A stretch of 64,000 nt of DNA. Source: an uncultured Ectothiorhodospiraceae bacterium (GTDB lineage Bacteria; Pseudomonadota; Gammaproteobacteria; XJ16; Halofilaceae). The notes below the pieces were generated by a model that worked only from the letters and a program-made list of their open reading frames with translations, did no database searches and was not told the origin of the DNA. The position numbers were made by a program, and so were the translations under genes. The stretch is taken from positions 62,001 through 126,000 of the forward strand of contig CAJXKK010000003.1 in NCBI GenBank assembly GCA_913055615.1. The letters run 5' to 3'. Shown here piece by piece: positions 7,243 through 63,929 of the stretch (position 1 is its first letter; the number at the start of each line of letters is the position of its first letter).

Positions 7243-7560
7243 GAACCACGAATGAACACGAATGCTGCCGCGCGAGGTGCATGGCTCGCGGGAGCTATGC
7301 TGGAAGGTGGCCGCAACGCAACGGTTGGGAAAGAACCACAGATGAACACAGATGGACACAGATAAAGTCAAAGGCGGTGAATGGGTAACCGTGATCGCGT
7401 GATCTCACCCCATCACGGATTTTGACCTTATCTGTGTTCATCTGTGTCTATCTGTGGTTCAAACGGGATCCCGTTCACCGACTACGCTTCAGCGAAGCTC
7501 CCGCGAGCCATGCACCTCGCGCGGCAGCCATTCGTGTCCATTCGTGTTCATTCGTGGTTC
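7243..7560. repeat. Outer GAACCACGAAT-type inverted repeat of a nested pair
   Basis: The left arm (7243-7296) begins GAACCACGAATGAACACGAA and continues into a unique block ending GGGAGCT. The right arm (7496-7560) is its reverse complement over the whole length, including the unique block, but carries one extra 11-base unit (GGACACGAATG class). About 54 paired bases with an 11-base insertion therefore enclose roughly 200 bases, which themselves contain a second element of different flavour (7333-7460). It fills the 394-base gap between metF and ahcY. No open frame with coding character lies inside. Confidence 0.85.
7333..7460. repeat. Inner GAACCACAGAT-type inverted repeat nested in the outer element
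   Basis: The left arm (7333-7372) consists of three units: GAACCACAGAT, GAACACAGAT and GGACACAGAT, then AAAGTCAAAG. The right arm (7420-7460) is its near-complement, with the middle units changed to AGACACAGAT and GAACACAGAT. A spacer of 47 bases separates the arms. The unit length is 10-11 bases. The inner end of the left arm, AGTCAAAGGCGG followed by TGAATGGG, recurs in the second repeat family at 63747. Confidence 0.85.
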
Positions 7561-7561
7561 C

Positions 7562-7592
7562 ATAAAGAGGCGGGACCCGCAGGCCCCGCCTC
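7562..7592 (-). terminator. Rho-independent terminator of ahcY
   Basis: Read on the minus strand, GAGGCGGG (7592-7585) and CCCGCCTC (7574-7567) form an eight-base GC-rich stem with a ten-base loop, followed by TTTAT. It starts 14 bases after the ahcY stop and would end the metK/ahcY transcript before the repeat-filled gap. Confidence 0.75.
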
Positions 7593-9025: not shown

Positions 9026-9047
9026 CGTGAGTGTGTCTCCGTATTGC

Positions 9048-9130
9048 GACGAGCGCCGTTGGTACGTGGGCCGGTACCCGAGCCTGGCGGTCCGCGCGGG
9101 GCGGAGGCCGTTGCAGCGCTCCTCGGGTCC
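9048..9130 (-). promoter_or_regulatory. SAH riboswitch in the ahcY leader
   Basis: On the minus strand the leader carries ACCCGAGGAGCGCTGCAACG (9127-9108), then a variable hairpin, then CCAGGCTCGGGT (9087-9076), then GGCGCTCG (9057-9050). ACCCGAG pairs with CTCGGGT to form P1, and GAGCGC pairs with GCGCTC to give the pseudoknot. These conserved blocks and their spacing match the S-adenosylhomocysteine riboswitch class known upstream of ahcY and metH in proteobacteria. The Shine-Dalgarno of ahcY follows within about 30 bases. By knowledge of the class, SAH binding turns expression on. Confidence 0.93.
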
Positions 9131-14517: not shown

Positions 14518-15084
14518 TCAGTCTTCGTGCGTCTGGATCCGCTGCAGGAGCCGATCGGCCGTGGCCGCACTGCGGCGACGGTCGGTGTCGATCACGAGTG
14601 CGGCGGTCGCCCGATACAGCGGGTCCCGCTCCCGTTGCAGGCGCTCCAGTGTAGCGCGCCGATCGCCGGACTGCAGCAGGGGGCGGCGCTGGTCGTTACG
14701 GGTGCGGCGCAGTTGTTCATCGACCGTCGTCGCCAGGTAAACGGTCAGTCCGCGCCGCGACAGGTGCTCCCGGTTTTCCGGGTCGAGTACGGCGCCGCCG
14801 CCGGTGGCGAGCACGATGCCGTCGCGCTGCGTGAGCTCATCGATCATGGCGCGCTCGCGCTGGCGGAAGCCGGCTTCGCCCTCGAAATCGAAGATGGTCG
14901 GGATGTCGACGCCGGAGCGCGTCTCGACTTCCCGGTCGGAGTCCAGGAAATCGAGGCCCATACGCCGGGCGAGGAGGCGGCCGATCGTGCTCTTGCCGGC
15001 CCCCATGGGCCCCACGAGGAAAATGCGCCCGGGAGGAAAATCCGGATCCGTCACGCCGTCATCAGTAATCGAGGCCGGCCTCAC
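14518..15084 (-). CDS. aroK: Shikimate kinase
   Basis: The 188-residue kinase phosphorylates shikimate at O3. The P-loop GPMGAGKST (residues about 25-33), the shikimate-binding DSDREVETRSG, the GEAGFRQRE and ATGGGAVL motifs, and the lid Arg in RRPLL are all present. Its start lies 23 bases inside the end of pilQ, so it is read from the same transcript as the pilus genes, as in many gammaproteobacteria. Confidence 0.97.
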   Translation of the reverse strand: MRPASITDDGVTDPDFPPGRIFLVGPMGAGKSTIGRLLARRMGLDFLDSDREVETRSGVDIPTIFDFEGEAGFRQRERAMIDELTQRDGIVLATGGGAVLDPENREHLSRRGLTVYLATTVDEQLRRTRNDQRRPLLQSGDRRATLERLQRERDPLYRATAALVIDTDRRRSAATADRLLQRIQTHED

Positions 15085-23628: not shown

Positions 23629-23647
23629 TTCCGTCAGGCGCGGGGTC

Positions 23648-23959
23648 GAACCACAGATGGACACAGATGAACACGGATCAGGGTGGTCGCCGCCAAAGCG
23701 CCAGGGAGTTGCGCTGACACCTGCTTCGAGTGGTGAGGTGCCGTAGATGAACCACAAAATCGATACAAGATGAACACAAAATAGGGCTTATGGCCCATTC
23801 CGTGGTGGGCGCAATCTCTGCGCCATTTTGTGTCTATCCTGTGTTCATTTTGTGGTTCAACAGTCCGAGGCTGCGGTGATGCGCCAGCGGGACGGCGGAC
23901 CCCACCAACGCAAACTCGCACCGACCCAATCTGTGTTCATCTGTGTCCATCAGTGGTTC
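23648..23959. repeat. Outer GAACCACAGAT-type inverted repeat of a nested pair
   Basis: The left arm (23648-23678) reads as units GAACCACAGAT, GGACACAGAT, GAACACGGAT. The right arm (23928-23959) is its approximate complement, with CAGTGGTTC at the edge where one base differs from the usual CTGTGGTTC. About 250 bases lie between, including a second element built from CACAAAAT units. The right arm overlaps the last codons and the stop of hemE. The 308-base gap between the upstream gene and hemE holds nothing else I can see. Confidence 0.82.
23749..23858. repeat. Inner GAACCACAAAAT-type inverted repeat
   Basis: The left arm (23749-23782) reads GAACCACAAAAT, CGATACAAGAT, GAACACAAAAT. The right arm (23824-23858) is its approximate complement. 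The spacer holds a smaller hairpin, GGCGCA-atctc-TGCGCC (near 23808-23824). This third flavour keeps the GAACCAC edge and the 10-11 base period of the other elements but has a different core word. Confidence 0.8.
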
Positions 23960-25016
23960 CGGAGCCACCCCCCCACCCCTTGACCGTCTCCACCATCGCG
24001 GCGACGTGCTCGGGATCGATGGCGGGATGTACGCCGTGGCCCAGGTTGAAGACGTGGCCGGGGGCGTCGCCGGCGCGCTCGAGGACCTGACGCGTCTCGC
24101 GGGCGATCGTCTCGGGGGAGGCATAGAGCACGCAGGGGTCGAGGTTGCCCTGCAGGGCGACCCGGTCACCCACGCGCCGGCGCGCATCGCCGATGTCGAT
24201 GGTCCAGTCGAGGCCGAGGGCGTCGGCGCCGGTCGCGGCCATGTCCTCGAGCCATTGCCCGCCGTTCTTCGTGAACAGGATAACCGGTACCGGCCGACCG
24301 TCGGCCTGGCGGGTCAGGCCGGAGACGATCCGCTGCATGTAGGCCAATGAGAACTCGCGGTACGCGTCGGGAGAGAGCGCGCCGCCCCAGGTGTCGAAGA
24401 TCTGCACGGCCTGGGCGCCGGCGGCGATCTGGGCGTTCAGATACGCGGTCGTGGAATCGGCGAGTACAGCGAGTACGCGATGCAGCAGGTCGGGCCGGTC
24501 GTAGAGCATCGCCTTGATGGTGGCGAAGTCCTTCGAGCTGCCGCCCTCGACCATGTAGGTCGCCAGCGTCCAGGGGCTCCCCGCGAAGCCGATCAACGGG
24601 ACCCGACCGTCCAGCGCCGCGCGTGTCTGCCGCAGTGCGGCCATCACGTAGCCGAGTTCAGTCTCCGGGTCGGGGGCGGTCAGGCGCTCGACATCGCGCT
24701 CGCTGCGCACGGGATTGCTGAGACGCGGCCCTTCGCCGGTGACGAAATGCAGGCCGAGCCCCATGGCGTGCGGGATCGTCAGGATATCGGAGAAGATAAT
24801 CGCCGCGTCGAGGTCGAACCGGTCGATTGGCTGGAGGGTGACCTCGCAGGCCATATCGGGGTTCTGGCACAGGGTGAGGAAGTCGCCCGCCCGCTCGCGC
24901 ACTGCGCGGTACTCGGGCAGGTAGCGCCCGGCCTGGCGCATGATCCAGACCGGTGGCCGATCGACGGGTTCGCGCGCGAGGGCGCGCAGCAGGCGGTCGT
25001 TCCGCAGCTCGGTCAT
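23937..25016 (-). CDS. hemE: Uroporphyrinogen decarboxylase
   Basis: The 359-residue enzyme removes four carboxyl groups from uroporphyrinogen III to give coproporphyrinogen III in heme synthesis. [17 protein letters not shown] near the start and [23 protein letters not shown] and the LDWT segment are family signatures. The last residues, after VKGWGGGSG, are TTDGHR and the stop: these are encoded by the edge of the CACAGAT repeat, not by conserved hemE sequence, so the repeat has replaced or extended the original 3' end. yqeY lies 40 bases upstream on the same strand. Confidence 0.96.
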
Positions 25017-30336: not shown

Positions 30337-31917
30337 ATGAGCGCAGTCATTCACGACACCGATCACCACGACGACCACGGTCCGGCCTACGGCTGGAAGC
30401 GCTGGCTGTTCACCACCAACCACAAGGACATCGGTACCCTGTACCTGTTCTTCTCCCTGGCCATGTTCTTTGTGGGCGGGCTGATGGCTCTCGTGATCCG
30501 GACCGAGCTGTTCCAGCCCGGCCTGCAGATCGTCGACCCGCATTTCTTCAACCAGATGACGTCGATGCACGCGCTGGTGATGATCTTCGGCGCCGTAATG
30601 CCCGCGTTCGTGGGCCTTGCGAACTGGCTGGTGCCGATGATGGTGGGTGCGCCGGATATGGCGCTGCCGCGCATGAACAACTGGTCCTTCTGGATCCTGC
30701 CGTTCGGGTTCACCCTGCTGCTGCTGACGCTGTTCCTCCCGGGGGGGGCGCCGGCCGCCGGCTGGACGCTGTACCCGCCGCTGTCGCTGCAAACGGGGGC
30801 GGCGTTCCCGTTCGCGATCTTTGCGATTCACATGCTGGGCATCTCGTCGGTGATGGGCGCGATCAACATTATCGCCACCATCTTCAATCTGCGCGCGCCC
30901 GGCATGACGCTGATGAAGATGCCGCTGTTCGTCTGGACCTGGCTGATCACGGCCTATCTGCTGATCGCGGTGATGCCGGTACTGGCCGGCGCGGTCACCA
31001 TGCTGCTGACGGACAAGTTCTTCGGCACGACCTTCTTCAGCGCGACCGGTGGCGGTGACCCGGTCATGTACCAGCACATCTTCTGGTTCTTCGGGCATCC
31101 CGAGGTCTACATCATGATCCTGCCGGCGTTCGGGATCATCTCGCAGATCATTCCGACCTTCTCGCGCAAGCCGCTGTTCGGCTACAGCTCGATGGTCTAC
31201 GCGACCGCCTCGATCGCGTTCCTGTCGTTCATCGTCTGGGCGCACCACATGTTCACCGTGGGCATGCCGCTGGCCGGTCAGCTGTTCTTTATGTTCTCGA
31301 CCATGCTCATCGCCGTTCCCACGGGCGTTAAGGTCTTCAACTGGATCGCGACCATGTGGCGTGGATCGCTCACCTTCGAGACGCCAATGCTGTTCGCCAT
31401 CGCCTTCGTGATCCTGTTCACCATCGGTGGGTTCTCGGGGCTGATGCTCGCGATCACACCGGCCGATATCCAGTATCACGATACCTATTTCGTGGTCGCC
31501 CATTTCCACTATGTTCTCGTCCCGGGTGCCGTCTTCGCGATTATCGCGGCCGCCTACTACTGGATGCCGAAGTGGACCGGTCACATGTACGACGAGAAAC
31601 TCGGCAAGTGGCATTTCTGGCTGTCGACGATCTTCGTCAACGTGCTGTTCTTCCCGCAGCATTTCGTCGGCCTCGCGGGCATGCCGCGCCGCATCCCGGA
31701 CTACTCGCTGCAGTTCATCGAGTTCAACCAGATCTCGACCATCGGGGCGTTCGGTTTCGGCTTCGCACAGCTGCTGTTCCTGTACATCGTGGTCAAGTGC
31801 GTCCGTGGCGGTGAGAAGGCGACCTCGCATGTATGGGAAGGCGCCCGGGGGCTGGAGTGGACGCTGCCGTCGCCGGCGCCGTATCACTCGTTCGAGACGC
31901 AGCCCGAGGTCAAATAA
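30337..31917 (+). CDS. ctaD: Cytochrome c oxidase subunit I
   Basis: The 526-residue protein is an aa3-type heme-copper oxidase catalytic subunit with 12 membrane helices. Heme and copper ligands are in the expected places: MTSMHALVMIFG (heme a His), WFFGHPEVYI (CuB His cross-linked to Tyr), WAHHMF (CuB His pair) and VAHFHYVLVPGAVF (heme a3 and heme a His). The D- and K-channel residues were not checked one by one. It lies 40 bases after coxB. Confidence 0.98.
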   Translation: MSAVIHDTDHHDDHGPAYGWKRWLFTTNHKDIGTLYLFFSLAMFFVGGLMALVIRTELFQPGLQIVDPHFFNQMTSMHALVMIFGAVMPAFVGLANWLVPMMVGAPDMALPRMNNWSFWILPFGFTLLLLTLFLPGGAPAAGWTLYPPLSLQTGAAFPFAIFAIHMLGISSVMGAINIIATIFNLRAPGMTLMKMPLFVWTWLITAYLLIAVMPVLAGAVTMLLTDKFFGTTFFSATGGGDPVMYQHIFWFFGHPEVYIMILPAFGIISQIIPTFSRKPLFGYSSMVYATASIAFLSFIVWAHHMFTVGMPLAGQLFFMFSTMLIAVPTGVKVFNWIATMWRGSLTFETPMLFAIAFVILFTIGGFSGLMLAITPADIQYHDTYFVVAHFHYVLVPGAVFAIIAAAYYWMPKWTGHMYDEKLGKWHFWLSTIFVNVLFFPQHFVGLAGMPRRIPDYSLQFIEFNQISTIGAFGFGFAQLLFLYIVVKCVRGGEKATSHVWEGARGLEWTLPSPAPYHSFETQPEVK

Positions 31918-39687: not shown

Positions 39688-39699
39688 GGCGCGGGCGAA

Positions 39700-39896
39700 G
39701 AACCACAGATGGACACAGATGAACACAGATAATGGCCTTGTAGGCCTGTTCTGGCCTCCGGGTAGTGAGTCTCGGCAGCGCAAGACGCGACCGGGTTGTT
39801 ATTCCGGGATCGAATCCGTGCGCTGGCCGATCCGCTGAAAGGCGCTTCAGCGCCCCAGGCCCACCATCTGCGTTTTTCTGTGTCCATCTGTGGTTC
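39700..39896. repeat. GAACCACAGAT-type inverted repeat between ftsY and ftsE
   Basis: The left arm (39700-39731) reads GAACCACAGAT, GGACACAGAT, GAACACAGAT, then AATGG. The right arm (39866-39896) is its complement with two degenerate units. The 134 bases between show no second element, unlike the nested cases. It occupies nearly the whole 231-base gap between the two cell-division genes, which are otherwise in operon order. Confidence 0.83.
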
Positions 39897-39918
39897 CTTT
39901 CGGCCCTCCAGCGCCCGC

Positions 39919-53695: not shown

Positions 53696-54193
53696 GTGGA
53701 CGTAATCGCCGTATACCCCGGCACGTTCGACCCGGTCACGCACGGCCACGCCGATGTGGCGGATCGCGCAAGCCGCATGTTCCATCGCGTGATCATCTCG
53801 GTGGCCGCGAATCCGTCCAAACAGCCGTTCTTCTCGCTCGAAGAGCGGGTGGCGTTTGCCGAGACCGTGTTCGCGGACAATTCGAATATCGAGGTCCGCT
53901 CGTTCGACTCCCTGCTGGTCGAGTACGCGCGTGAACAGGGCGCCGGCGCGATCCTGCGCGGCCTGCGCGCGGTGTCCGATTTCGAGTTCGAGGTCCAGCT
54001 CTCGGGCATGAACCGCCGCCTGGCGCCGGAGATCGAGACCGTGTTCATCTCCGCCGCCCAGGAATACGGCTTCGTCTCCTCCAGCCTCGTGCGCGAAATC
54101 GCCTGCCTCGGCGGCGACGTCACCGAATTCGTCTCCCCTGCGGTCAAGGAGGCTCTTGATGCGCGGTTCAGGGCGAGTAAGAACCACGAATAA
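53696..54193 (+). CDS. coaD: Phosphopantetheine adenylyltransferase
   Basis: The 165-residue enzyme makes dephospho-CoA. VYPGTFDPVTHGHADV with the T/HxGH motif, GLRAVSDFEFE and the C-terminal EYGFVSSSLVREIACLGGDV are typical. It starts at GTG 53696. The last residues KNHE and the TAA at 54191-54193 are encoded by the first bases of the CACGAAT repeat, beyond the conserved end of the family, so the repeat edge defines the stop codon here as in hemE. Confidence 0.97.
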   Translation: MDVIAVYPGTFDPVTHGHADVADRASRMFHRVIISVAANPSKQPFFSLEERVAFAETVFADNSNIEVRSFDSLLVEYAREQGAGAILRGLRAVSDFEFEVQLSGMNRRLAPEIETVFISAAQEYGFVSSSLVREIACLGGDVTEFVSPAVKEALDARFRASKNHE

Positions 54194-54534
54194 AAGAGAA
54201 CCACGAATGAACACGAATGGACACGAATGGTTCCCTTGGCCAGGAAAGCGCGTCGGAGCTTCGCTGGAACCGGTCGGGGCAGGTCGGTAAAGGGCAAGAA
54301 CCACAGATGGACACAGATAAAAACAAAAAGGACCAAAGGGCGTCGCGCAGCTGACGTATGCGCCGCGTCCGGATGATTGGCTGAAGAGTCGGTTTTTCTA
54401 TCTGTGTTCATCTGTGTCTATGTGTGGTTCAAATAGCAACGCATCGACGGCAACGTAAGACTCTCCGCGAAGCTCCAGACAATTCTCCACGCCCCAGGGA
54501 AATATTCGTGTCCATTCGTGTCCATTCGTGTTCA
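54181..54534. repeat. Outer CACGAAT-type repeat enclosing an inner CACAGAT-type element
   Basis: The left outer arm (54181-54230) holds GAACCACGAAT, a second GAACCACGAAT after AAAAGA, then GAACACGAAT and GGACACGAAT. The right outer arm (54504-54534) is complementary to the last three units but has lost the GTGGTTC edge. Inside, GAACCACAGAT plus GGACACAGAT (54298-54318) pair with the complement at 54398-54430. The single gap of 438 bases between coaD and ggt holds only these two nested elements. Confidence 0.82.
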
Positions 54535-54631
54535 TAGCTCGGCGCATCCCTGCGCCTCGCCCCTTCGGGGCTGGCGCGAAAATCCGCTCCCGGCGGATTT
54601 TTGGTGCTTCCAGTCTCTCGGCTCGTCAGTC

Positions 54632-56350: not shown

Positions 56351-56438
56351 CATGGTCGGCGGCGTCATCGTGGCGCGGGCCGAACCGCCATGGATGCGGG
56401 CCATTGCCCGGACCGGCGGCACGGGGAGATCCGAAGGC

Positions 56439-57110
56439 ATGCGGAAAAAACACCCTTATCGACTGTTTGCACTGCTGTTCGGCGCCGCGTTGCTGGCCGG
56501 CCCGGTCAGCGTCACGAGCGCGGCGGACGACGACGAACTGATCGGCCGCATCGCAGGTAAGGGCGGTATTTTCGACTTCACCAAACTCAACGATCAGGGT
56601 CAGCCGCTCTCCAAACAGGGCGGGGTCTATACCGTTACCCCGTGGTCCTGCGTGCGCGACAACGTCACCGGTCTCATGTGGGAAGTGAAGACGACGGACG
56701 GCGGACTGCGTGACCAGAATCACACGTACACCTGGCACAACCCCGATTCCGGGGAGAATGCCGGGGCGTCGGGGCCAAGCGACGGCGGCGACTGCAGCGG
56801 TTCCGACTGTGGCACGCACGCCTATGTCCAGGCCGTGAACGAACGGGGCCTGTGCGGCGCCACCGACTGGCGCATGCCCACGCGCTCCGAACTGCGTACG
56901 ATCGTGGACTATCAGGCCACCTTCCCCGCCATTCAGACCGCCTACTTCCCGAATACCGTGGCGACCTCGTTCTGGACCTCCGAGCCCAACGTCAACTACC
57001 CGAACTTCGCGTGGCACACCGACTTCAAGTTCGGGCTGGCGAGCTATTACTACTTCAAATCCGGCCCCAAAGCGGTCCGCCTCGTCCGCGACGTGGACGA
57101 CGACGATTAG
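56439..57110 (+). CDS. Secreted DUF1566 (Lcl C-terminal domain) protein
   Basis: The 223-residue protein has a signal peptide (about 1-28, ending TSAADDD) and a DUF1566 domain: CVRDNVTGLMWEVKTTDGGLRD, a Cys/Gly-rich insert (GGDCSGSDCGTHAYVQAVN), and WRMPTRSELRTIVDY, then FWTSEPNV and the ending KAVRLVRDVDDDD. Such domains occur in exported and surface proteins, including a collagen-binding adhesin in Legionella; function here is unknown. Four Cys residues could form disulfides. GGGGAG lies upstream of the ATG at 56439. Confidence 0.85.
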   Translation: MRKKHPYRLFALLFGAALLAGPVSVTSAADDDELIGRIAGKGGIFDFTKLNDQGQPLSKQGGVYTVTPWSCVRDNVTGLMWEVKTTDGGLRDQNHTYTWHNPDSGENAGASGPSDGGDCSGSDCGTHAYVQAVNERGLCGATDWRMPTRSELRTIVDYQATFPAIQTAYFPNTVATSFWTSEPNVNYPNFAWHTDFKFGLASYYYFKSGPKAVRLVRDVDDDD

Positions 57111-57177
57111 TGTGCCTCTTCAGGCGGGGTTCTCTCCCTCGCCAAGACATCGCGTAAGCCAGCGAACAAATAAAATG

Positions 57178-57301
57178 CAGCTCTCGCAGAGGCGCTGAGA
57201 GCGCAGAGAAACAGGAATAAGAAGGACGTGTGGCCTGCTGCTTGCTCAAAAGTGAGCGCTATTCCTTGTCTTTCTCCACGCTCTTCGCGCCTCTGCGAGA
57301 G
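57178..57301. repeat. CTCTCGCAGAG-type inverted repeat (second family)
   Basis: The left arm (57178-57218) reads GCAGCTCTCGCAGAGGCGCT, then GAGAGCGCAGAGAAA and AGGAATA. The right arm (57261-57301) is its complement with a few mismatches, followed by TTCGCCTTTGACTTTC. Units of about nine bases (CTCGCAGAG, GCGCTGAGA, GCGCAGAGA) take the place of the 10-11 base units of the other family. It occupies the middle of the 304-base gap between the DUF1566 gene and mutM, where I see nothing else. Confidence 0.82.
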
Positions 57302-57414: not shown

Positions 57415-58230
57415 TCAAGTCTGGCAATGCGGGCAATACACGGTCGCGCGCTGGCCGAGGCGGCGGGTGCGCAGGGTGTGGCCGCAGCGGCGGCAGGGCG
57501 CGCCGGCGCGGCCGTAGACGGCGAGCGATATGCGGAAGTAACCGGGCGCGCCCGTCGCGCTGGTGAAGTCGCGGAGCGTGGTCCCGCCCCGCTCGATCGC
57601 CTCCCCGAGGATCCGTTTGATCGCCTGGGCGAGCGCACGGTAGCGCGCCCGACCGACCCGCCCGGCCGCGCGGGCCGGGTGGATGCCCGCGTCGAACAGC
57701 GCCTCGGCGGCGTAGATGTTGCCGACGCCGACGACGATCCGGCCGTCCATGATGAAATCCTTCACCGATCTCCGCCGTCCGCGTGACCGTCCGTAGAGGT
57801 GATCACCGTCGAAGGCCGGATCCAGCGGCTCTGGCCCGAGTCGTGCCAGTACCGCGGGGAGCGGCGCCTCGGCGTCGAACCAGAGCACCGAGCCGAAACG
57901 CCGTGGATCGCGCAGCCTGAGACATGCGTCGCCCTCGAACAGTATGTCCACATGGTCGTGAACGGCGGCGGGTGTGTCGGGAGACACGACCCGGAGGCTG
58001 CCGGACATCCCGAGGTGCAGCATGATGGTGCCCCGGTCCGTGCGCAGGAGCAGATATTTGGCGCGGCGATCCACCGCCGTCACGGTCGTATCCTTCAGCA
58101 CGTCCAGCGCGGCGACCGGCACCGGCCAGCGCAGCCGTGGTTCACGCACCGTGACGCCACGGATCGCGCGGCCTTCGATGTGCGGCGCGATCCCGCGGCG
58201 GGTGGTCTCGACCTCCGGGAGTTCTGGCAT
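57415..58230 (-). CDS. mutM: Formamidopyrimidine-DNA glycosylase
   Basis: The 271-residue base-excision repair enzyme removes 8-oxoguanine and formamidopyrimidines. The mature N-terminal Pro-Glu ([12 protein letters not shown]), the Lys near residue 58, the helix-two-turn-helix segment [20 protein letters not shown] and the C-terminal zinc finger CRRCGHTL...CPHCQT are intact. Confidence 0.98.
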
Positions 58231-62509: not shown

Positions 62510-63706
62510 ATGAACGAAACACTGCGTATTCTGGAATCCGGACTGCTCGATCTGTCCATTGCGGGCTACGTGGCGGTCGTGCTGGTGTTGACCCATATCA
62601 CGATCGTGGCGGTGACGATCTATCTGCATCGCTGCCAGGCCCATCGCTCGGTCGATCTGCATCCCGGCGTTGCGCACTTCTTCCGCTTCTGGCTGTGGCT
62701 GACCACAGGCATGCGGACCATCGAGTGGGTCGCGATCCACCGCAAGCATCATGCGCACACGGAGACCGAAGAGGATCCGCACAGCCCGCACCAGGCCGGG
62801 ATCTGGAAGGTTCTGCTCGAGGGCGCGGAGCTGTACCGCGACGAGGCGAAGGATCAGGAGACGCTGGACAAGTACGGACACGGCACGCCGGACGACTGGA
62901 TGGAGCGCAACGTCTATGCGCGCTTCGAGACCGGCGGCATCGTATTGATGGGCGTGCTCGCGCTCGCGCTGTTCGGCGTGCTCGGCATGACCGTCTGGGC
63001 GATCCAGATGATGTGGATCCCGCTGTGGGCCGCGGGCGTCATCAACGGGCTCGGTCATTACCTCGGTTACCGCAATTTCGAGTCGGCCGACGGCTCCACC
63101 AACCTCACGCCACTCGGGGTCCTGATCGGCGGCGAGGAGATGCACAACAACCACCACGCCTTCCCGAGCTCGGCGAAGTTCTCGCAGCGCTGGTACGAGT
63201 TCGACATCGGCTGGTTCTATCTGCGCATCCTGTCCGCGCTCGGGCTGGCGAAGATCAAGCGGGTCGCGCCCAGCCCCACGGTCGACCCGGCCAAAACGAC
63301 GATCGACTTCGAGACGGTCAAGGCCGTCGTGATCGCCCGCATGCACGTCATGCGCACGTATGCCCGGAGCGTGACCGTGCCGGTCCTGAAGGCCGAACTC
63401 GAGCGCGTGGACGACGGCACGCGTGCGTTGCTCAAACGCGCCAAAGGCGCCCTGATCCGCGACGAGTCACGCATGGACGCGCAGTCGAAGGCACGCCGCG
63501 ATCGGGCACTGAGCGCCAATGAGCGTCTGCACACGGTCTACGAATACCGCCGCCGCCTGCAGGAGCTTTTCGCCTCCAGGCGCGTGACCCAGGAACAGCT
63601 GGTGCAGTCGCTGCAGGCCTGGTGCGCGAGCGCGGAACAGACCGGCATCCAGGCACTGGAAGACTTCGCCTCGCATCTGCGCGGTTACCGGTTGAAGACC
63701 GACTGA
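62510..63706 (+). CDS. Membrane fatty acid desaturase
   Basis: The 398-residue protein has the three His boxes of di-iron membrane desaturases: HRCQAHRS (about residue 41), HRKHHAHTE (about 78) and HNNHHAFP (about 208), between pairs of membrane helices. It belongs to the stearoyl/acyl-CoA delta-9 group and would introduce a double bond into membrane lipid acyl chains. A helical cytoplasmic tail of about 110 residues after the third box (ARMHVMRTYARSVTVPVLKA) is also seen in gammaproteobacterial homologues. Confidence 0.94.
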   Translation: MNETLRILESGLLDLSIAGYVAVVLVLTHITIVAVTIYLHRCQAHRSVDLHPGVAHFFRFWLWLTTGMRTIEWVAIHRKHHAHTETEEDPHSPHQAGIWKVLLEGAELYRDEAKDQETLDKYGHGTPDDWMERNVYARFETGGIVLMGVLALALFGVLGMTVWAIQMMWIPLWAAGVINGLGHYLGYRNFESADGSTNLTPLGVLIGGEEMHNNHHAFPSSAKFSQRWYEFDIGWFYLRILSALGLAKIKRVAPSPTVDPAKTTIDFETVKAVVIARMHVMRTYARSVTVPVLKAELERVDDGTRALLKRAKGALIRDESRMDAQSKARRDRALSANERLHTVYEYRRRLQELFASRRVTQEQLVQSLQAWCASAEQTGIQALEDFASHLRGYRLKTD

Positions 63707-63744: not shown

Positions 63745-63929
63745 GAAGTCAAAGGCGGCCTCTCGCTGAGCCGCAGAGAACGCGGAGAAAGGCGATGAAT
63801 GGGGTGGCAAGGCGCCACCACGAATCCTTGGACGCAGCGGCTTCGACACCTGCCCTCACCTCGAGAGGGTTTTACCTTCTTTACTCTCGGCGCTCTCCAC
63901 GGCTCTGCGAGAGGCCGCCTTTGACTTTC
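63745..63929. repeat. CTCTCGC-type inverted repeat (second family), near-complete copy
   Basis: The left arm (63745-63792) reads GAAGTCAAAGGCGGCCTCTC, then GCTGAGCCGCAGAGAACGCG and GAGAAAGG. The right arm (63875-63929) is its complement with several mismatches, ending GCCGCCTTTGACTTTC. The first 12 bases after GA, AGTCAAAGGCGG, are identical to the inner part of the CACAGAT element at 7366, and AAAGGCGATGAATGGG further in resembles AAAGGCGGTGAATGGG there. The 294 bases from 63707 to the window end hold no gene that I can see. Confidence 0.82.

Follow-up and report, generated by a model that had tools for sequence, protein, structure and literature searches.

Hairpins of inverted heptamers at gene ends: probable gene-less members of a GxxExxY family of minimal mobile elements

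Introduction

MITEs are gene-less elements with inverted ends that come from a coding parent, RAYT is a Y1 HUH transposase, and the Rpn proteins are small PD-(D/E)XK-like nucleases. The heptamer repeats analysed below are common in many genomes and may be mentioned in the literature. No description of the arm strings, of the GxxExxY arms or of the repeat words reported below was found in the open literature, most subscription papers and preprints lying outside the scope of the search. Among the closest described systems, REPIN/RAYT is described as short palindromes spread between genes and a dedicated enzyme that is thought to move them (PMC3116915, PMC2817692), and GTAG/CGTC tags are reported on REPs (PMC3733652). 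Rpn (YhgA-like, PF04754) is reported to contribute to RecA-independent horizontal transfer (PMC5350276). The intervening sequence (IVS) of the Coxiella 23S rRNA has 428 nt, a 28-bp stem and tandem GACAGAT heptamers and is excised by RNase III, and its origin is called unclear (PMC4990558).

Here we analyse two hairpins of an uncultured Ectothiorhodospiraceae bacterium, found in a window of 64,000 nucleotides (the whole stretch analysed). A preliminary description, made from the sequence, had taken them for a second family of long inverted repeats, of two copies and with 9-base units, that shares its design with a first family in the same window.

Results

Two heptamer hairpins adjoining gene ends

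Copy 1 is flanked by two genes that converge on it, an Lcl_C-domain gene on its left (56352..57110, plus strand, stop at 57110) and a formamidopyrimidine-DNA glycosylase gene on its right (57415..58230, minus strand, stop at 57415), while copy 2 begins 40 bases past a desaturase-like gene with an FA_desaturase domain (62510..63706, plus strand, stop at 63706), so that the setting at gene ends is as it had been described. Residues 273-394 of the desaturase-like protein also match the transposase profile DDE_Tnp_ISL3 (E 1e-11), an odd pairing. The left arm of copy 1 (57181..57211, plus strand) reads CTCTCGCAGAG-G-CGCTGAG-AG-CGCAGAG-AAA, that is, three heptamers with spacers of 1 and 2 bases; a loop of 59 bases (57212..57270), which bears no trace of a GxxExxY gene, separates it from the right arm (57271..57301, minus strand), and TTCGCCTTTGACTTTCC follows (to 57318). 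In copy 2, the left arm (63746..63788, plus strand; AAGTCAAAGGCGGC-CTCTCGCTGAG-C-CGCAGAG-AA-CGCGGAG-A) and the right arm (63885..63927, minus strand; ending in GGCCGCCTTTGACTT) enclose a loop of 96 bases (63789..63884).

The arms are 31 nt each and 87% complementary in copy 1, and 43 nt each and 88% complementary in copy 2. The RNA folds (−74.2 kcal/mol, z −6.9 for copy 1; −106.1 kcal/mol, z −8.0 for copy 2) far exceed those of dinucleotide shuffles, none of which folded equally well, and the DNA fold of copy 2 has a z of −8.4 against shuffles. Long inverted repeats are thus borne out at both places, with stems whose predicted length would on paper be sufficient for excision by RNase III. The arms had been thought more divergent than those of the first family, which does not agree with the 83-86% complementarity of the first-family pairs I2, I5 and I6. 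Of the common flank that had been proposed, the right part (GCCTTTGACTTTC) is present in both copies, whereas the left part (AAGTCAAAGGC) occurs in copy 2 only.

In both copies the arm consists of three CRCNRAG heptamers, separated by 1 and then 2 bases. A 9-base unit was discarded, since heptamers with unequal spacers fit better. The left arms of both hairpins match this G-type pattern (spacers 1,2) exactly and the right arms with one mismatch each. Inspection by eye revealed no GTAG or CGTC tag (the REP core) at the arm ends of either hairpin, where the arms read ...CTCTCGC..., and in an Rfam scan of the window neither hairpin matched a family and there was no rRNA match. The sole Rfam match in the window is a SAH riboswitch at 9044-9130 on the minus strand (53.7 bits).

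The first family follows the same plan with other heptamers and spacers (CACAGAT or CACGAAT, spacers 3 and 3), which upholds the view of a second family built on the design of the first. Its sites, to which no strand is assigned, include 7264..7563, where CACAGAT and CACGAAT heptamer arms (spacers 3,3) are nested with a 50-base inverted repeat; 23642..23962, with CACAGAT arms that enclose a second inverted repeat; 39694..39899, with CACAGAT arms; and 54192..54537, with CACGAAT arms that enclose CACAGAT arms. The orthologous sites of the second and third of these in the congener G002 have CACGAAT arms, and that of the fourth is empty in the genome G001, where the flanking genes overlap (TGATG).

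Copy number and covariation of the arms

Far from two copies, the 3.0 Mb genome to which the window (C3:62001-126000) belongs has 93 exact arms of the G-type pattern CRCNRAGNCRCNRAGNNCRCNRAG, 47 forward and 46 reverse, with 0 in the reversed-pattern control; nearly equal counts on the two strands are what paired arms produce. A companion pattern for the endings A and T gives 59 + 57 (control 1) in the same genome and a maximum of 209 + 197 in G334. Over the class, 65 of 369 genomes have at least one exact G-type match (maximum 117 + 128, in G066), with 2096 matches in total and 7 in the reversed-pattern controls. Further copies, the search for which had been put forward as a check, are therefore present genome-wide.

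Compensatory changes between arms, the other check proposed, are in excess. When the G-type hairpins of the own genome (n=28) were paired by nesting, which was done for the G type only, the two arms differed at 4.5 of 28 positions, against 7.1 after re-pairing (0 of 20,000 as low), and changes common to both sides numbered 76, against 35.2 expected (maximum 56 in 2000 re-pairings). The hairpins of G002 (n=9) gave an arm difference of 3.44 against 6.72 (52 of 20,000). Naive neighbour pairing of exact arms was rejected, as it mispairs nested elements and gives a weaker signal (own G type 125 of 20,000; G002 1738 of 20,000); under it, covariation of T-type arms was not significant (3653 and 4220 of 20,000). 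Covariation need not mean selection on the folded hairpin, because elements that arrive with matched arms covary as well; arrival as a matched pair and selection on the stem both produce it, and it does not decide between them.

The same arms enclose GxxExxY genes

The own genome has two PF13366 genes, L056 and L061, and both proteins correspond to TIGR04256 (GxxExxY). L056 (E 6e-39 against PF13366, a PD-(D/E)XK-like profile) is enclosed by the arms TCTCTCGCCAAGACGCCAAGCGCGCCAAGGA, of the same type as those of the two window hairpins, and sits between two genes that we take from their translations to be trpE and trpG. L061 (on contig C6 of the own genome, G000) is enclosed by GAACCACAGATGGACACGGATGAACACAGAT, of the CACAGAT type, which is the arm type of the first family; further inverted T-type arms occur in its neighbourhood. 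The reading of the hairpins as a hairpin family is therefore retained in part: they do form a second family of the same design, but the bracketing of GxxExxY genes by the same arms moves the reading to a family of mobile elements.

The association was scored as the best inverted pair of arms at most 200 bases from the gene, with flanks taken from different loci (mismatched) and windows displaced by 900 bases as controls. The 77 loci come from 96 PF13366 rows, of which 19 were left out (fragments, weak matches, and G172:C42 and G001:C149 at contig ends). A score of at least 14 was obtained at 64 of the 77 loci, against 61 of 1000 mismatched pairs and 0 of 74 displaced windows, and a score of at least 18 at 52 of 77, against 23 of 1000 and 0 of 74; the remaining 13 of 77 loci scored below 14. 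By the last base of the heptamer the arms at these loci are of three types, G, T and A, with spacers of 1,2 in most G arms and mostly 3,3 in T arms.

The loops of 59 and 96 bases contain neither gene nor remnant, and we therefore call the window hairpins gene-less members. No GxxExxY remnant was detected in the gene-less loops of the own and G002 stretches (best E 0.29), which indicates that the loops there are not recent deletion products. Both neighbours run in the direction of the GxxExxY gene in 6 of 6 annotated plasmid records, and in 26 of the 34 class loci with both neighbours called (out of 43 with at least about 1 kb on each side), as given by a rough gene caller that gave the wrong strand or overlooked a neighbour at L053 and L056.

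Among 25 GxxExxY sequences there is no exception to E25 or K77, while at least 90% have D65 and E75, a pattern that fits an E...D...ExK nuclease. L061 has DTK instead of ExK, and this copy is perhaps inactive, as judged from its residues. The dN/dS between the own genome and G002 is 0.11 for GxxExxY, compared with 0.048 for trpE and 0.084 for trpG, which indicates that GxxExxY is kept as a protein by purifying selection. The AlphaFold model is unusable (pLDDT 40.5), and a sequence search found no relative in the PDB.

Occupied and empty sites

In the genome G277, a transporter operon (whose HlyD-like partner was named by eye from its translation) has an insertion of about 1 kb that separates the transporter stop from the HlyD-like start and is made up of a GxxExxY gene and further hairpins, whereas the same site in G170 has 4 bases (GCAC), between flanks that are 95-97% identical to those of G277. 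At a second site, G277 combines a gene-less hairpin of 160 bases with a gene-bearing element, G023 lacks the gene but has the same outer arms, and G170 has neither element, with one base between the aligned flank blocks. The 5-base TAAGA at this second G277 site is a candidate duplication, a single case, and no clear target-site duplication was seen at the sites compared. PF13366 has no match in G023, yet matches to the 160-base hairpin occur there at about ten places.

The window aligns collinearly with the congener G002 (identity about 86%), and at nine sites both genomes have an element of the same type. The arms are orthologous and can be aligned at six of them (54202, 57185, 67915, 71890, 75533 and 85479), and the words differ at three (23652, 39704 and 63764). 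A concerted change of all six heptamers at every orthologous site was discarded, as the alignments show orthologous arms at six of the nine. At the copy 1 site, G002 has kept an outer CGCCAAG element with the window hairpin nested inside it, whereas the own genome has decayed outer arms only: the left one lies at 57130..57160 (plus strand) and is intact at the orthologous G002 site, and of the right one GGCGAGCACCCCTCAG is all that is left. The copy 1 site is empty in G001, a more distant genome, where the matched gene ends are about 50 bases apart. The copy 2 site of G002 has CGCCAAG arms that enclose a GTAG-type palindrome, and the 67915 site of G001 has one CGCCAAG arm. The GxxExxY copy between trpE and trpG occupies the same site in G002 and probably in G001 (contigs break inside the gene), so there has been no recent movement of this copy.

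GTAG-type palindromes (GTAGGAGCGAGCTTGCTCGCGA) and GTAGGTCGGACTTCCAGTCCGAC hairpins are found in or near heptamer hairpins, in nests of two to three layers (L002, L199, L042, L035). In G002, a palindrome family (GATTCGCCGGGAGCGAATC...) is inserted between the heptamers of a CACGAAT arm (L198/L197; G002:C11, about 30,830-30,910 and 14,870-14,930).

Arm types on the GxxExxY protein tree

The tree covers 62 GxxExxY proteins and rests on few columns; many of its forks are open, and one branch (L209) is very long. Arm type changes 3 times on it, where the minimum is 2 and the shuffled mean 19.4 (0 of 200 shuffles had as few changes), and a branch with support 98/94 sets the G type apart from the rest. 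Six loci whose arm type is unclear, the loci scoring below 14 and four plasmid loci were left out, and for the four plasmid loci that remained the arm type was assigned by eye. G-type genes occur together with A- or T-type genes in seven genomes (G000, G002, G086, G238, G277, G334 and G338), so the host does not explain arm type. Arm type goes with the protein phylogeny rather than with the host, and the joint change of gene and arms resembles that of an enzyme and its target.

Across the 369 genomes, 37 of the 57 that have a strong GxxExxY match are arm-rich, compared with 22 of the 312 others (odds ratio 24, p 3e-21), and with the G pattern alone the figures are 29 of 57 and 13 of 312 (p 1e-17); because the species are related these p values are too small, although the draw spans well over a hundred families. 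Eight genomes with a weak or short PF13366 match were kept outside the strong set, and counts of the A/T pattern (W) below 6 were ignored. The discordant genomes are 22 that are arm-rich with no strong GxxExxY match and 20 that bear the gene and are not arm-rich.

The same heptamers surround GxxExxY loci in Bacteroidota, Gemmatimonadota and Alphaproteobacteria. Relatives in PLSDB were found in eight plasmid records (Bacteroides, Bernardetia, Gemmatirosa, Sphingomonas, Treponema, Persicobacter, Fusobacteria and Prevotella), four of these loci with G-type arms, that of Treponema with a weak pair and three with none clear. In the Sphingomonas plasmid, the gene sits between fabD and fabG.

Arms around IVP genes

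The S23p/IVP four-helix-bundle gene (PF05635, TIGR02436) is found in 23S rRNA IVS. Around IVP genes outside rRNA the arm score was at least 14 at 24 of 34 loci, against 84 of 1000 mismatched pairs and 0 of 65 displaced windows; the sample combines 4 rows of one profile search with 30 loci of another, the other rows of which were not used. The own genome has no PF05635 match. An IVP-like frame with two stops (L065, G029:C9) lies inside what appears by eye to be a 23S rRNA gene, between arms of AGAAGACAG-like units. The word GGGCCAA forms the arms of the IVP gene of G002 (L064), and about twenty tandem GGGCCAA heptamers stand in the loop of a G002 hairpin (L200, G002:C11:66,400-66,560).

Discussion

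That the hairpins are real and of wide reach is near certain. We interpret them, with a probability of roughly 0.6, as gene-less representatives of a mobile-element family whose full members are very small and have one GxxExxY gene between two inverted arms, each of three heptamers CRCNRA(G/T/A). Taken separately, their membership of the GxxExxY element family is very likely, a high degree of confidence also attaches to the mobility of this family in evolution, and GxxExxY itself is, on balance, probably what does the moving. The pairing of arms and gene suggests a hitherto undescribed type of mobile DNA of very small size. A more far-reaching proposal, which we advance tentatively and at somewhat less than even odds, is that GxxExxY and its spaced-heptamer arms make up a self-sufficient element of ~450-500 bases that cuts its own arms, as cruciform or duplex, with no known transposase; it would have spread through several phyla with an arm code for each enzyme clade, and would seed gene-less hairpins, which host genomes would then nest, swap and carry in dozens to hundreds.

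In such a mechanism, GxxExxY would recognise the heptamer triplets, as duplex or extruded cruciform, and cut there, after which repair would set a copy of the element elsewhere, frequently at an operon junction or within a hairpin already present, in its loop or in one of its arms. Insertion into older hairpins would give rise to the nested palindromes of the window. Expression of the GxxExxY gene would depend on transcription of the host operon. RNase III may trim the hairpin in the transcript, as happens with rRNA intervening sequences, and the insertions would thereby become tolerable. The gene-less hairpins would either multiply in trans or be relics.

A RAYT-like, REP-associated Y1 transposase or another host transposase might instead move the hairpins in the manner of REPINs, with GxxExxY as a passenger in some of them. 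Y1_Tnp matches are present in all six genomes tested (five in the own genome, of which three are over the cut-off), so that such enzymes could move gene-less hairpins and this rival stands; the GTAG-tagged, REP-like palindromes nested in the same hairpins and the many gene-less copies of G023, where PF13366 has no match, also speak for it. We consider it unlikely, since a Y1 mover leaves unexplained why arm type follows the GxxExxY tree, why the gene hugs arms at 64 of 77 loci and why the same heptamer surrounds GxxExxY in other phyla.

The position of both hairpins just past gene ends and the covariation of the family would also be expected of ordinary host features, such as terminators or mRNA stabilisers, multiplied for their usefulness at gene ends, the likeness to the GxxExxY arms being secondary. 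This is improbable given the sporadic occurrence of the exact G-type arm (65 of 369 genomes), the presence or absence of hairpins between congeners, their nesting in one another and the different words at some orthologous sites. What speaks for a non-mobile defence or toxin-like module, in which the hairpin would be a switch or decoy, is the parallel of Rpn, another PD-(D/E)XK-like family that was first named for recombination. A later report describes Rpn proteins as toxin-antitoxin systems (PMC10327210). On the other side, PADLOC gave no match for three GxxExxY proteins, PHROG a weak match for one protein only (E 4.5e-4), viral relatives are few, and the genes occur as single-gene insertions scattered between ordinary genes, all of which makes such a module very improbable.

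If GxxExxY elements are mobile as we propose, a conserved family that is named only by a motif gains a testable function, and a class of repeats (ACACAGATG..., CGCAGAG..., CGCCAAG...) at gene ends in many genomes would be explained. Should the enzyme read its arms, nature would have provided, in the arm codes of the clades, a set of matched nuclease/target pairs. The rRNA intervening sequences, an old puzzle, gain a parallel case outside rRNA.

With the MITEs of classical insertion sequences, the window hairpins share the lack of a gene, the inverted ends and a coding parent, for which GxxExxY is the candidate here, but there is no clear target-site duplication. REPIN/RAYT is similar in combining short palindromes between genes with a dedicated enzyme; this is a Y1 HUH enzyme, whereas GxxExxY is PDDEXK-like, and the REP tags are absent from the heptamer arms, though GTAG-type palindromes are nested in them. 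Rpn resembles GxxExxY as a small PD-(D/E)XK-like protein of a different family, for which we know of no cognate inverted arms. The IVS with an IVP gene are alike in having one small ORF within heptamer arms and a hairpin in the transcript. They lie in rRNA genes, whereas both window hairpins adjoin protein genes, and their arms are mostly 7-base tandem words, e.g. (GTAGGCA)n, rather than spaced CRCNRAG triplets. IVP and GxxExxY belong to unrelated protein families, and each of these small genes seems to have taken on the same architecture.
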